64,000 bases of DNA from contig NZ_JACCBA010000001.1 in the NCBI RefSeq assembly GCF_013409365.1, positions 62,001 to 126,000 of the forward strand. Reading direction: 5' to 3'. The DNA is from Actinomadura luteofluorescens. GTDB lineage: Bacteria > Actinomycetota > Actinomycetes > Streptosporangiales > Streptosporangiaceae. Below, one piece after another: positions 47,215 to 52,494 of this stretch. The notes beneath the pieces were generated by a model. That model had not been told where the DNA came from and ran no database searches. It saw nothing but the letters and a program-made list of their open reading frames with translations. Numbering within the stretch: the stretch's first letter is position 1; every line of letters begins with the position of its first letter. Both the position numbers and the translations under genes were made by a program.

Positions 47215-48174
47215 ATGAAGGAGCGTCACCTCGGGCGGAGCGGGCTGCTGGTGTCCCGGCTGGGACTCGGCACCATGACCTGGGGCCAGGACACCTCCCC
47301 GGACGAGGCGGCCGCGCAGCTCATCGCCTTCGTGGAGGCCGGGGGCACCCTGGTCGACACCGCCGACGTCTACAACGACGGCCACAGCGAGCGCATCCTC
47401 GGCCACCTGCTGCGCGAGCTGGTCGACCGCGACGACCTCGTCGTCGCGACCAAGGCGGCGATCAGGCCGAACGGACGCTACGACGGCTCCCGCAGGCACC
47501 TGCTGCGCGCCCTCGACGCCTCGCTCGACCGGATGGACCTCGACTTCGTCGACCTGTGGCAGCTGCACGTCTACGACCCGCACACCCCGCTCGAGGAGAC
47601 CCTCTCGGCACTGGACGAGGCGGTCTCCTCGGGACGGGCCCGGTACGTCGGGGTCTCCAACTACGCGGGCTGGCAGGTCGCCAAGGCCGCCGCCTGGCAG
47701 CGGGCCTGGCCGGGCCGCGCGCCGGTCGTGTCCGCGCAGCTGGAGTACTCGCTGCTGAGCCGCGACATCGAGCGGGAGGTCGTGCCCGCCGCGCTGGACG
47801 CGGGGGCGGGCCTGCTGCCGTGGTCGCCGCTCGGCCGCGGCGTCCTCACCGGCAAGTACCGCACCGGCATCCCCGCCGGGTCGCGCGCCGCCGCGCCCCA
47901 CTTCGCCGAGTTCGTCCAGCCGTACCTGGACGAGGAGTGCGCCCGCATCGTGGAGTCGGTGGTGACCGCCGCCGAGGGCCTCGGCTGCTCCCCGCTCGCC
48001 GTGGCGCTCGCGTGGGTCCGCGACCGGGAGGGCGTCGCCGCGCCGATCGTCGGCGCGCGGACCGCGGCGCAGCTCGGCGCGATCCTGGCGAGCGAGGAGG
48101 TCACGCTGCCGCACGAGATCCGCGGGGCGCTGGACGACGTCTCCGATCTCTCCGACACGACCTCCCACCCGTGA
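47215..48174 (+). CDS. Aldo/keto reductase
   Basis: The 319-residue NADPH-dependent oxidoreductase has the complete catalytic tetrad Asp48, Tyr53, Lys80 and His118 (VDTADVY, VATKA, WQLHVYD). It has the cofactor-binding GVSNYAGWQ and the NADP pocket IVGARTAAQLG. Sequence style fits the AKR11/AKR12 type reductases. It is a single gene. The substrate is unknown. Confidence 0.93.
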   Translation: MKERHLGRSGLLVSRLGLGTMTWGQDTSPDEAAAQLIAFVEAGGTLVDTADVYNDGHSERILGHLLRELVDRDDLVVATKAAIRPNGRYDGSRRHLLRALDASLDRMDLDFVDLWQLHVYDPHTPLEETLSALDEAVSSGRARYVGVSNYAGWQVAKAAAWQRAWPGRAPVVSAQLEYSLLSRDIEREVVPAALDAGAGLLPWSPLGRGVLTGKYRTGIPAGSRAAAPHFAEFVQPYLDEECARIVESVVTAAEGLGCSPLAVALAWVRDREGVAAPIVGARTAAQLGAILASEEVTLPHEIRGALDDVSDLSDTTSHP

Positions 48175-48255: not shown

Positions 48256-50160
48256 GTGACCGACACCCCTGACCACACCCCCACCCCCGAGGAGCGCAAG
48301 GCGCGCGCCGAGGCCGCCATGCGCGCGGCAGAGGCCGCCGCAGGCGCGCTCGACGGGCGGGACGCCCCCGAGCCCGCGCCGCGTTCGTCGCCGCAGCCGC
48401 CGCCCGAGCCCGCCGGCGGCCCGGAGGAGGGCCTGCGGGCCCTCGGCGGTCTGTTCGCGGAGACGGGCGTGCCCGCCGCGCTCGCCTCCCGCGCCATGGC
48501 GCGCCTCGGGCCGGGAGCCGCCGGGCGGCTGCGCGAGGACCCGTGGCGCCTGCTGAGCGTCCCCGGCGTCCAGCCCGGTCAGGCCGACCACTTCGCCCGC
48601 GCCCTGCTCGGCGAGGACGCCCGCCCCGGCGACCCCCGCCGCGGCGGGGCCCTCGTCCTGCACCTGCTGACGGAGGCGGCACGCCAGGGCCACACGGTCA
48701 CGCCCGCCGCCGACGTCCTGTCCGCGCTGGAGCGGCTGCGCTTCCCCGACCCGCCGCGCGCCGTCGAGGCGGCGCTGGACGAGGCGGAGGTCCTGTCGCT
48801 CACCGAGGAGCCCGAGTTCGACGAGGAGGCGTTCGAGGACGGCGCCGAGCCGCCGGAGCCGGAGGAGACGCTCGGCCCGGCGCGGTGGGCGCTCGCGGAG
48901 GAGGCGGCGGCCGAGGGGTTCCAGCGCCTGACGCTCACCGCCGTGCCGCTGCTCGACGAGGCGGCCCTCAAGGGCCTGCGCGACGGGCTCCCCGAAGACC
49001 GCTCCCTGGCCCTCACCGCCGCGCTGCGCACCGGCGTGAGCATCCTTTGCGGCGCGCCGGAGGGCCTCGCGCGCACGGTCACCGAGATCGCCGCTGCCGC
49101 GGCGTCGCAGGGCGTCCGCACGGCCGTGGCGGCGCCCACCGACCGCGCCGCCGCCGACCTCGCGGCCGCCGTCCCCGGCGGGGCGGCGCAGGGGTTCGCG
49201 GTCACCAGCCTGCACCGGCTGCTGGAGCCGCGCGAGGACCCGTCGGCCGCGCCCGGGGCGGTGCTCTACGAGCGCGGCGAGCAGCGGCCCTTCGACCTCG
49301 ACCTGGTCATCGTGACGGACGGCGCGGCGCTCGACGTCGAGCTGTGCGCGGTGCTGACCGAGGCGTGCCCCGACGGCGCCCATCTCGTGCTGTGCCGCGA
49401 GCCGGGCGCCCCGCCGCCCGCCGGCCCCGGCCGGCCGCTGGACGATCTGGAGGCGTCGGAGACCGTGCCCGTCGTGGCGCTGGACCCCGAGCCGCCGTCC
49501 GGCCCGCTCGGCGCGATCACCGACGCGGTGCGCGGCGGCGAGCTCGCGGCCGTGGACGCCCCCGGACACGAGGTCGTCATCGTGCCGGCCGAGGACGCCG
49601 GCGAGGCGGTGCACCGGGCCGTCCAGCTCGTCGCCGACTCGATCCCCCGCGCTCTCGGCATCCCGGTCGAGGACGTCCAGGTCGTCGCCCCGGCCGCGGG
49701 CGGTGAGGCGGGCGCAGGCGCCCTGAACGCCGCGCTCAAGGCGCGCCTGAACCCGGGCCCCGGCGCGTTCGGCGGCATGGACCCCGGCGACCGCGTGGTC
49801 GTCGCCGCGCCGCTCCCGCAGGCCCCGCTCGGCGAGACCGGCGTGGTGACCGGCGGCGGACCGCACGGGCTGGAGGTCGGCTTCCCGGGCGGCGCCGCGG
49901 TCGTCGCCCCGGCGGAGGCGTCCCGGCTGCGGCACGGCTGGGCGGTCCCCGTGGCGCTCGCGCGCGGGACGCGGCGTCCCGCCGTGGTGGCGGTGCTGGG
50001 CGCGGACGGCCTGTCACGGCCGCTGGTGGCCACCGCGTTCGGGCTCGCGCGCCGCCACCTGTCGGTCGTGCAGGCGGCCGGACCCGCACTGGCCAGGGCC
50101 GTCCGCGAGGACGGGGCCCCGGCCCGGCGCACCAGGCTCGCGCGGCTGGTGGCCCAGTGA
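48256..50160 (+). CDS. RecD2-like helix-hairpin-helix protein lacking helicase motifs
   Basis: The 634-residue protein aligns by pattern with RecD2 helicases. An N-terminal HhH region (DPWRLLSVPGVQPGQADHFA) is followed by AARQGHTVTP. The Walker A position then reads CGAPEGLA (265-272) instead of GGPGTGKT. APTDRAA (293-299) and TSLHRLLE (317-324) are recognisable, but Walker B is VIVTDGAALD (351-360) where RecD has VDEASM. The C-terminal motif VI region is TAFGLAR instead of TAVTRAR. ATP hydrolysis is therefore unlikely. GGGAAG lies before GTG 48256. It is probably a structural DNA-binding paralogue. Confidence 0.8.
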   Translation: MTDTPDHTPTPEERKARAEAAMRAAEAAAGALDGRDAPEPAPRSSPQPPPEPAGGPEEGLRALGGLFAETGVPAALASRAMARLGPGAAGRLREDPWRLLSVPGVQPGQADHFARALLGEDARPGDPRRGGALVLHLLTEAARQGHTVTPAADVLSALERLRFPDPPRAVEAALDEAEVLSLTEEPEFDEEAFEDGAEPPEPEETLGPARWALAEEAAAEGFQRLTLTAVPLLDEAALKGLRDGLPEDRSLALTAALRTGVSILCGAPEGLARTVTEIAAAAASQGVRTAVAAPTDRAAADLAAAVPGGAAQGFAVTSLHRLLEPREDPSAAPGAVLYERGEQRPFDLDLVIVTDGAALDVELCAVLTEACPDGAHLVLCREPGAPPPAGPGRPLDDLEASETVPVVALDPEPPSGPLGAITDAVRGGELAAVDAPGHEVVIVPAEDAGEAVHRAVQLVADSIPRALGIPVEDVQVVAPAAGGEAGAGALNAALKARLNPGPGAFGGMDPGDRVVVAAPLPQAPLGETGVVTGGGPHGLEVGFPGGAAVVAPAEASRLRHGWAVPVALARGTRRPAVVAVLGADGLSRPLVATAFGLARRHLSVVQAAGPALARAVREDGAPARRTRLARLVAQ

Positions 50161-50263
50161 GGTACTGATGGGTAAAGAAACCCCCGTGTCGCGGTTTACG
50201 GACGACCCCGTATGGGACACGATGTCAACAAGGGTCAGGCACGGCATCGGGTGGAGGAGCGAC

Positions 50264-50905
50264 ATGCCCCAGCGGCTCAGGCGGCTCGGAACGGCGTCGG
50301 CGGCGGTCTCGGCGGGGGCGCTCGTCCTGGTCCTCGCCGCCCCGGCGGCCGAGGCGGCGGCGGAGACGTGCAAGAAGGGCGTCGACCCCGAGAGCACGGT
50401 GGAGAACTGGAAGTGCAACCTCGGCAACCTGCGCGAGGCGATCACCCCGAAGAGCCCCACCCCGGCTCCGGCGCCGTCCAAGACCGTGAAGCCCGTCCCC
50501 GAGAGGACCTCGAAGAAGACGAGGACGCCGGCCAAGGCGCCCGCCAAGGCCCCGCGCAGGCCCGCCTCGGCGCGGAGCGGCGGGCGGGCGGCGCCCGGCC
50601 CCGCCCCGATGACAGGGCCGGGCGGCCTCAAGCCGTACTCCGGGCAGGCGCCGGCCACGGCCGCCGGGCTGCCGGGCGTCCTGCCCACCCCGGAGATCGC
50701 GGCCGACCCGAACGCCTACCGCAACGCTTCGGCCGGGACGGCCGCCATGCCGCAGACCCGCCTCATCTCCCCCGTGGCCGCCACCGGCCAGGACGACGGC
50801 CAGATGGTCCTGGTCGCCGCCGCGGCCGGGGCCGCCGGGGCCGTGGGCGCGCTCAACGTCAGCGTCGCGGGCCGCGCCCTCCGCCGCCGGCGCGAGGCCC
50901 GCTGA
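50264..50905 (+). CDS. Secreted or membrane-anchored Pro/Ala/Lys-rich protein
   Basis: The 213-residue protein has an N-terminal signal peptide (LRRLGTASAAVSAGALVLVL, cleavage near AEAAAET). A short region with two cysteines follows (TCKKGV and WKCNL). A long Pro/Lys/Ala-rich linker comes next, and then a C-terminal hydrophobic helix (MVLVAAAAGAAGAVGALNVSV) before RALRRRREAR. That order fits a cell-envelope protein anchored at its C-terminus. GGAGGAG before ATG 50264 sets the start; the frame opens at 50168. No family is recognised. Confidence 0.7.
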   Translation: MPQRLRRLGTASAAVSAGALVLVLAAPAAEAAAETCKKGVDPESTVENWKCNLGNLREAITPKSPTPAPAPSKTVKPVPERTSKKTRTPAKAPAKAPRRPASARSGGRAAPGPAPMTGPGGLKPYSGQAPATAAGLPGVLPTPEIAADPNAYRNASAGTAAMPQTRLISPVAATGQDDGQMVLVAAAAGAAGAVGALNVSVAGRALRRRREAR

Positions 50906-50950: not shown

Positions 50951-51739
50951 TCACATGGACGGCGCGCCGACCGAGTGCAGCCCGCCGTCGACGTGGACGA
51001 TCTCGCCCGTCGTCGCGGGGAACCAGTCCGACAGCAGGGCCGCGCACGCGCGGGCGGTGGGCTCGCTGTCCTTGATGTCCCAGCCGAGCGGGGCCGCCTG
51101 CGGCCACAGCTCCGTCATGCCCTCGAAGCCGGGGATGCTCTTGGCCGCCATCGTCGCGAGCGGGCCCGCGGCGACGAGGTTCACCCGGATGCCCTGCGGG
51201 CCCAGGTACTTGGCCAGGTAGCGGGCGCACGACTCCAGGCCGGCCTTCGCCACGCCCATCCAGTCGTACACCGGCCACGACTTGGTGGCGTCGAAGTCGA
51301 GGCCGACGACCGAGCCGCCGTCCTTCATCAGCGGCAGGCACGCCATCGTCAGCGACTTCAGCGAGTACGCGGAGGCGTGCACGGCGGTGGCGACGTCCTC
51401 CCAGGGCGTCTCCAGGAAGTTCCCGCCGAGCGCCGTCTGCGGCGCGAACGCGATCGCGTGCATCACGCCGTCGAGGCGGTCGAAGCCGCTGTCGCGCAGG
51501 TTCCCGGCGAGGGCGCCGAGCTGGTCGGCGTCGGTCACGTCGAGTTCCAGCACCGGCGGCGGGTTGTCGGGGCCGGACGGCAGCCGCTTGGCGGTCCGCT
51601 GCGTGAGGGTCGGCCGCGGGTAGGCGGTCAGCACCACCTCGGCGCCCTGCTCCTGCGCGATCCGCGCGACGTGGAAGCCGATGGAGGCGTCGGTGAGGAC
51701 GCCGGTGACCAGGATGCGCTTGCCTTCGAGGATTCCCAT
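50951..51739 (-). CDS. fabI: Enoyl-ACP reductase FabI/InhA type
   Basis: The 262-residue NADH-dependent enzyme has catalytic Tyr158 and Lys165 (YDWMGVAKAG), LDFDATKSWPVYDWMG, and a Gly-rich start ILVTGVLTDASIG. These features resemble mycobacterial InhA rather than enteric FabI. Ala is present in MHAIAF where InhA has Ser94. It reduces the enoyl intermediate in fatty-acid elongation. It follows fabG by 5 nt in the fabG-fabI order typical of actinobacteria. Confidence 0.94.
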   Translation of the reverse strand: MGILEGKRILVTGVLTDASIGFHVARIAQEQGAEVVLTAYPRPTLTQRTAKRLPSGPDNPPPVLELDVTDADQLGALAGNLRDSGFDRLDGVMHAIAFAPQTALGGNFLETPWEDVATAVHASAYSLKSLTMACLPLMKDGGSVVGLDFDATKSWPVYDWMGVAKAGLESCARYLAKYLGPQGIRVNLVAAGPLATMAAKSIPGFEGMTELWPQAAPLGWDIKDSEPTARACAALLSDWFPATTGEIVHVDGGLHSVGAPSM

Positions 51740-51744
51740 GTCCG

Positions 51745-52494
<750 letters not shown>

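Follow-up and report, generated by a model that had tools for sequence, protein, structure and literature searches.

The gene at positions 48,256 to 50,160 of the 64,000-nucleotide stretch of the Actinomadura luteofluorescens genome analysed here (the window; the source genome is a single contig of 9.62 Mb) encodes a protein that, judged by its sequence, is a real pseudohelicase, selected and clade-wide. It descends from motor-intact helicases, as its orthologues lie mostly at the same locus and its clade is nested among them, and its catalytic motifs have been lost across the lineage, in every member examined, while the gene has been conserved. Our main reading, to which we assign a probability of about 0.6, is that it is an orthologue of a short RecD2-type helicase (the short form) whose motor was most likely lost once, that the gene was kept thereafter, and that the protein would have an ATP-independent role in DNA binding or as a scaffold. 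The features of the locus, in window positions, are the following.

47,215 to 48,174, plus strand: aldo/keto reductase gene, a conserved neighbour, 81 bp upstream of the short form (Pfam Aldo_ket_red, 1.1e-67)
48,256 to 50,160, plus strand: motor-dead short RecD2-like protein, 634 amino acids, GTG start
48,256 to 48,429, plus strand: residues 1–58, variable Ala/Pro-rich N-terminus; an N-terminal HhH module occupies this place in most motor-intact orthologues
48,430 to 48,699, plus strand: residues 59–148, HHH_RecD2 domain (Pfam), retained; 17 of 20 conserved positions kept, none lost
48,805 to 48,870, plus strand: residues 184–205, acidic tract of the middle region, seen in the sequence
49,048 to 49,071, plus strand: former Walker A, CGAPEGLA; the lysine is present in all 22 motor-intact and all 6 canonical rows but in none of the 48 degenerate ones
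49,315 to 49,335, plus strand: former Walker B, TDGAALD; among degenerate forms Asp in 2 of 48 and Glu in 9 of 48
49,393 to 49,416, plus strand: former motif III (GDPAQLP), CREPGAPP; among degenerate forms Asp in 33 of 48 and Gln in 15 of 48
49,951 to 49,980, plus strand: former motif V, VALARGTRRP; in the alignment Arg replaces Glu573
50,032 to 50,052, plus strand: former motif VI, TAFGLAR; its arginine (position 597) is Leu here and is kept in 27 of 48 degenerate forms

The original prediction had described an intact frame of 634 codons with blocks in the order of RecD2 and with every helicase motif lost, and this description is borne out. The HHH_RecD2 domain (PF14490) matches residues 59–148 at 8.7e-12, with 45.2 bits against a Pfam cut-off of 27, and AAA_19 matches at 1.4e-7. 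The NCBIfam model of RecD2, TIGR01448, matches at 2.3e-35 over profile positions 138–711, and a profile of 63 sequences aligns with RecD2 of Deinococcus radiodurans (3e1s) at 8.6e-50 over positions 18–572 of 578. The protein therefore resembles RecD2 in its HHH domain and in the SF1B-like order of its core along nearly the whole profile, but it lacks the N-terminal part, its score of 121.9 bits is far below the curated TIGR01448 cut-off of 500, with the model not fully covered, and none of Walker A, Walker B and motifs III to VI is present in working form in the alignment. The degraded sequences at Walker A, Walker B, motif III and motif VI are those predicted; alignment to motif-complete relatives places VALARGT at motif V, which had been recorded as absent, and shows motif IV to lack its YRQ as well.

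What the degenerate forms keep was scored over 236 columns with 90% or more uniformity among 22 motor-intact rows (four of these columns are gaps in the window protein), a column being counted as kept if common to at least 80% of 48 degenerate rows, from which the two long, remnant-like sequences L026 and L140 were left out. The HHH domain keeps 17 of 20 such columns, the middle region 6 of 12, lobe 1 22 of 80, and lobe 2 59 of 120. The arginine of motif IV is present in 0 of 48 degenerate forms and the histidine and glutamine of motif V in 5 of 48 each, and several conserved residues of lobe 2 at or near motif V are gone; the glycine of motif V survives in 45 of 48, and some non-catalytic positions of the core persist. 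Partial retention of catalytic residues, as for the motif III aspartate and the motif VI arginine, suggests that some motifs are incompletely eroded outside the Actinomadura group. An HMM of the N-terminal HhH module matches 21 of 24 motor-intact short forms, five canonical RecD2 proteins weakly and one fragment (L038), and with this HMM the module is absent from every degenerate form. In 16 Actinomadura/Thermomonospora rows the HHH domain has a mean net charge of +3.4, versus +0.7 in motor-intact rows; in Streptomyces-like forms its net charge is -4. The middle region (residues 149–244) has a mean net charge of about -17 in the same 16 rows, and the protein is acidic overall.

In a sample of 81 genomes of the order, counting as carriers those with a match better than 1e-50, the short form occurs in 54, of which 50 belong to the window's own GTDB family and four to families f2 and f3. 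The P-loop lysine and pattern are found in none of the 50 carriers of the own family, 49 of which have a single frame, whereas the four short forms of f2 and f3, from the window's own order, keep every motif. The dead form is present in 12 of 13 genomes of the own genus, this genome included; for the remaining one (G004, about 450 contigs) canonical RecD2 alone was found. The short form is missing from 27 of the 81 genomes of the order and is therefore dispensable in whole genera. Among the best 120 of 1165 relatives of the window protein, which where named are chiefly Actinomadura, Spirillospora, Thermomonospora and Actinocorallia, the P-loop pattern is absent in 117, some of them partial, and is kept in P0110, P0116 and P0118. 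Likewise, 46 of 49 named loci on genome contigs, some partial, are without it, the other three coming from one Frankiales and two Geodermatophilaceae MAGs.

In a sample of 98 genomes of the class, 43 have a match to a motor-intact query at 1e-30, a count that includes canonical RecD2. Among the loci returned, the motifs are kept, to the extent covered, in those of families f9, f12, f14, f16, f18, f19 and f23, and those of f20 and f10 are without them. Family f20 is Streptomyces (a protein is 100% identical), and all five of its genomes examined carry dead forms. The lysine is absent in all of the best 120 of 4785 relatives of the Streptomyces form; two of these contain GK[ST] by chance, in their N-terminal tail. 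All 118 relatives newly listed for the motor-intact query (the best listed of 6990) have a P-loop, as do 21 of 21 motor-intact loci. P0293 and P0320, motor-intact MAG proteins related to the f2 form and labelled Streptosporangiaceae bacterium, count against a simple family rule, although this label is the source's own naming and may not equal the window's GTDB family. In one genome of family f4 a degenerate remnant without motifs (a frame of 371 amino acids, at about 7533–8645 of L160; L026) directly follows a same-strand aldo/keto reductase gene, and another genome (G113) contains a fragment of the short form. The loss of the motor is wider than the Thermomonosporaceae, the family across which the original prediction had proposed to measure selection, and includes Streptomyces. 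Homologues keeping Walker A and B, which were to speak against a maintained pseudohelicase, do exist and mostly at the same locus. They belong to other families, and since all 50 carriers of the own GTDB family are without the P-loop lysine, we read them as the ancestral state.

The common neighbour indicates that these two kinds of protein belong together. The aldo/keto reductase gene is found in 57 of 68 loci, a count that includes the window itself, a redundant copy (L082) and one locus (L160) in which the short form is unmatched; eight of the 11 exceptions lie at contig edges and three are family f19. In the remaining loci with both genes the reductase is upstream of the short form in the same orientation. 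It accompanies 9 of 13 motor-intact loci and, within the stretch taken, 21 of 24 further carriers, being the adjacent gene in Actinomadura and lying up to about 4 kb away in some other genera. The motor-intact short forms also share the architecture that follows the N-terminal part, at about 40–52% identity, but keep the helicase motifs and mostly the N-terminal module. On account of the shared reductase, the best reading is that dead and motor-intact forms are orthologous at a single locus. Other neighbours are more restricted. The product of the gene that follows the short form (50,168–50,905, 245 amino acids) has no Pfam match at 1e-5, and its relatives come after the short form in many Actinomadura loci. 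Further downstream and on the opposite strand (50,951–52,449) are two short-chain dehydrogenase/enoyl reductase genes (Pfam adh_short_C2), which we take to be FabI- and FabG-like and which also occur in most Actinomadura loci and in some other genera.

Phylogenetic analysis of 76 rows, from which 81 motif columns had been removed and in which the degenerate rows are a selection (39 loci, 10 listed proteins and the window), groups the 48 degenerate forms in a single clade (support 100/99; 200 of 200 bootstrap trees) nested among motor-intact forms, with Streptomyces inside it on a long branch. A quick tree that includes L026 and L140 places 50 in one group (SH-aLRT 98), with the caution that these two long branches meet. 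The degenerate forms also share V378 (45 of 48), P417 (44 of 48) and the loss of Glu573 (47 of 48, with Arg instead in 32), which fits a single loss. It is possible, if rather doubtful, that the motor was lost in parallel, twice or more, in Streptomyces and in the window's family. The motor-intact state of f2 and f3 and the different reading of the Walker A region in Streptomyces-like forms would agree with this, and the arrangement expected from taxonomy, with two losses, is 27.4 log units lower and just barely rejected (p-AU 0.042), the Streptomyces branch being long. However, the single clade is obtained without the motif columns, and the three shared positions speak against separate events. 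From these sequences a single ancient loss is favoured and the two-loss arrangement weakly rejected, the matter being unsettled.

The ATPase motor would accordingly have been lost in the ancestor of a large clade that comprises Streptomyces, Actinomadura, Thermomonospora, Actinocorallia and their kin. The descendant proteins would retain a RecD2-like fold, would not hydrolyze ATP, and may bind DNA through the HHH domain without ATP and scaffold proteins of repair or replication. That the motor was lost and the HHH domain retained points to such ATP-independent DNA binding or scaffolding, and the protein probably holds DNA or partner proteins rather than unwinding DNA. The HHH domain carries a favourable charge in the Actinomadura group, which it does not in Streptomyces, so a role as protein scaffold is conceivable. 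For the fuller proposal, that a helicase was converted once, in the ancestor of the Streptomyces/Actinomadura group, into a motor-less scaffold for DNA architecture or repair that is under selection and independent of RecD2, we would put the odds at even. Several observations count against our explanation, namely that the HHH domain is not the slowest region in Actinomadura, the negative HHH charge in Streptomyces-like forms, the acidity of the protein, the losses in lobe 2, an omega above that of canonical RecD2, one split frame (G040), and the 27 genomes of the order that lack the short form.

RecC of RecBCD is a helicase fold without a working motor that is put to structural use within a known complex. 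The short form could by analogy be a subunit dedicated to a larger repair machine, a structural arm with little DNA binding of its own, although RecC is not RecD2-like. Lobe 2 is the slowest region in Actinomadura (omega 0.137, versus 0.204 for the HHH region, where, as for the middle region and frame +2, the estimate comes from models other than GY+F3X4), several of its conserved residues at or near motif V have been lost, and the strongly acidic middle region would suit protein contacts. We regard this as unlikely, because the aldo/keto reductase is the only neighbour found across families when seven neighbour proteins of the window were tested.

The search for a second recD2 in the same genome led to a motif-complete protein of 746 amino acids with GGPGCGKS, VVDECS, GDVDQLPS, ITIHRSQGSEYP and TGITRAKK, and most carriers of the short form, the window's genome among them, have a second match at the level of canonical RecD2. 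This co-occurrence would suit a regulator of canonical RecD2, as the original prediction had considered. Such a role is improbable, since 6 of 13 tested carriers of the dead form, two of them single-contig genomes, are without a RecD2 above the family cut-off, although these RecD2-less carriers had been picked for showing a single match in an earlier search; the same finding makes dependence on RecD2 unlikely, and an obligate regulator is a weakened candidate. Five of six tested genomes with a motor-intact short form are likewise without a RecD2 above the cut-off, as if the motor-intact form were substituting for it. Among the 27 genomes of the order without a short form, 17 have a second RecD2-type match, of which the sole one read (L134) is motif-complete; no such second match appears among the matches listed for carriers of the short form, a pattern that may merely reflect clades.

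That ATP might still be bound or hydrolyzed through a rebuilt site is very improbable: although the P-loop region of Actinomadura forms is shortened by only one residue relative to motor-intact forms, none of the 48 degenerate forms has the lysine or the motif IV arginine, and 46 of them lack the Walker B aspartate.

The maintenance of the gene was evaluated by its omega. For the dead form in ten genomes of the own genus, whose tree is long so that dS is partly saturated, omega is 0.092 (GY+F3X4), 0.173 (GY+F1X4) and 0.215 (MG+F1X4), two to three times the values for canonical RecD2 of the same genomes (0.031, 0.084 and 0.098, respectively), and the wrong-frame controls that converged give 1.6–3.8. 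Under GY+F3X4, motor-intact short forms have 0.060 (f19, five rows) and 0.054 (f16, four rows), and dead forms 0.063 (Streptomyces-like, three rows) and 0.089 (g9, five rows). In close pairs, the safer check, the dead form has 0.24–0.29 by NG86 and 0.067–0.081 by YN00, the neighbouring reductase 0.12–0.28 and 0.029–0.052, and FabG 0.10–0.16 and 0.030–0.065; TldD rows were left out, being misaligned over 60 codons with an omega of about 0.5. The gene is constrained by purifying selection, less than its neighbours and RecD2, in agreement with the predicted maintenance and against decay. Carriers fetched additionally have one frame each, with the exception of the single-contig genome G040 (L173), in which the short form is split over two frames, possibly by recent loss or sequencing error. 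Internal stops in L019 and L108–L111 lie ahead of the homologous part. Actinomadura sp. WMMA1423 has the locus twice, near both ends of its record (L039 and L082), and the second copy, frameshifted at a contig end with flanks as in L039, was taken to reflect assembly redundancy. The A. rubrisoli frame (L083) leaves the family after about residue 307, at a contig end. A pseudogene on its way out is scarcely credible, in spite of the genomes that lack the gene and the one split frame, given an omega far under one and an intact frame in 49 of 50 carriers; decay is rejected for the clade as a whole, and single lineages may still be losing the gene.

A precedent for a dead helicase with DNA binding and a partner is D. 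radiodurans PriA, an assayed pseudohelicase for which it is reported that Walker A and B were lost in the lineage with the gene kept, that DNA is still bound, and that there is evidence of DnaB binding (PMC4504706). PriA belongs to a different helicase family, and the short form, known here from sequence, has lost more motifs. For B. subtilis RecD2, one report describes a preference for forks and links to SsbA and RecA, and mentions the N-terminal region of RecD2 as a proposed DNA binder (PMC12143592); the HHH protein in PMC9500057 appears as a ComEA hit. Among the papers listed on RecD2, on pseudohelicases and on Streptomyces and Actinomadura, a motor-less RecD2-like clade was not found at the level of titles and the beginnings of abstracts.

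Proteins of this clade bear the database names helix-hairpin-helix protein, RecD-like helicase, AAA family ATPase, exodeoxyribonuclease V alpha subunit or conjugal transfer protein TraA. An ATPase chemistry is implied by most of them, yet, going by the usual motifs, these proteins cannot have it. As the clade includes Streptomyces, tests of the function are feasible in common laboratory strains, and dead and motor-intact orthologues, mostly at the same locus, offer a natural comparison for the roles of RecD2-type helicases beyond unwinding.
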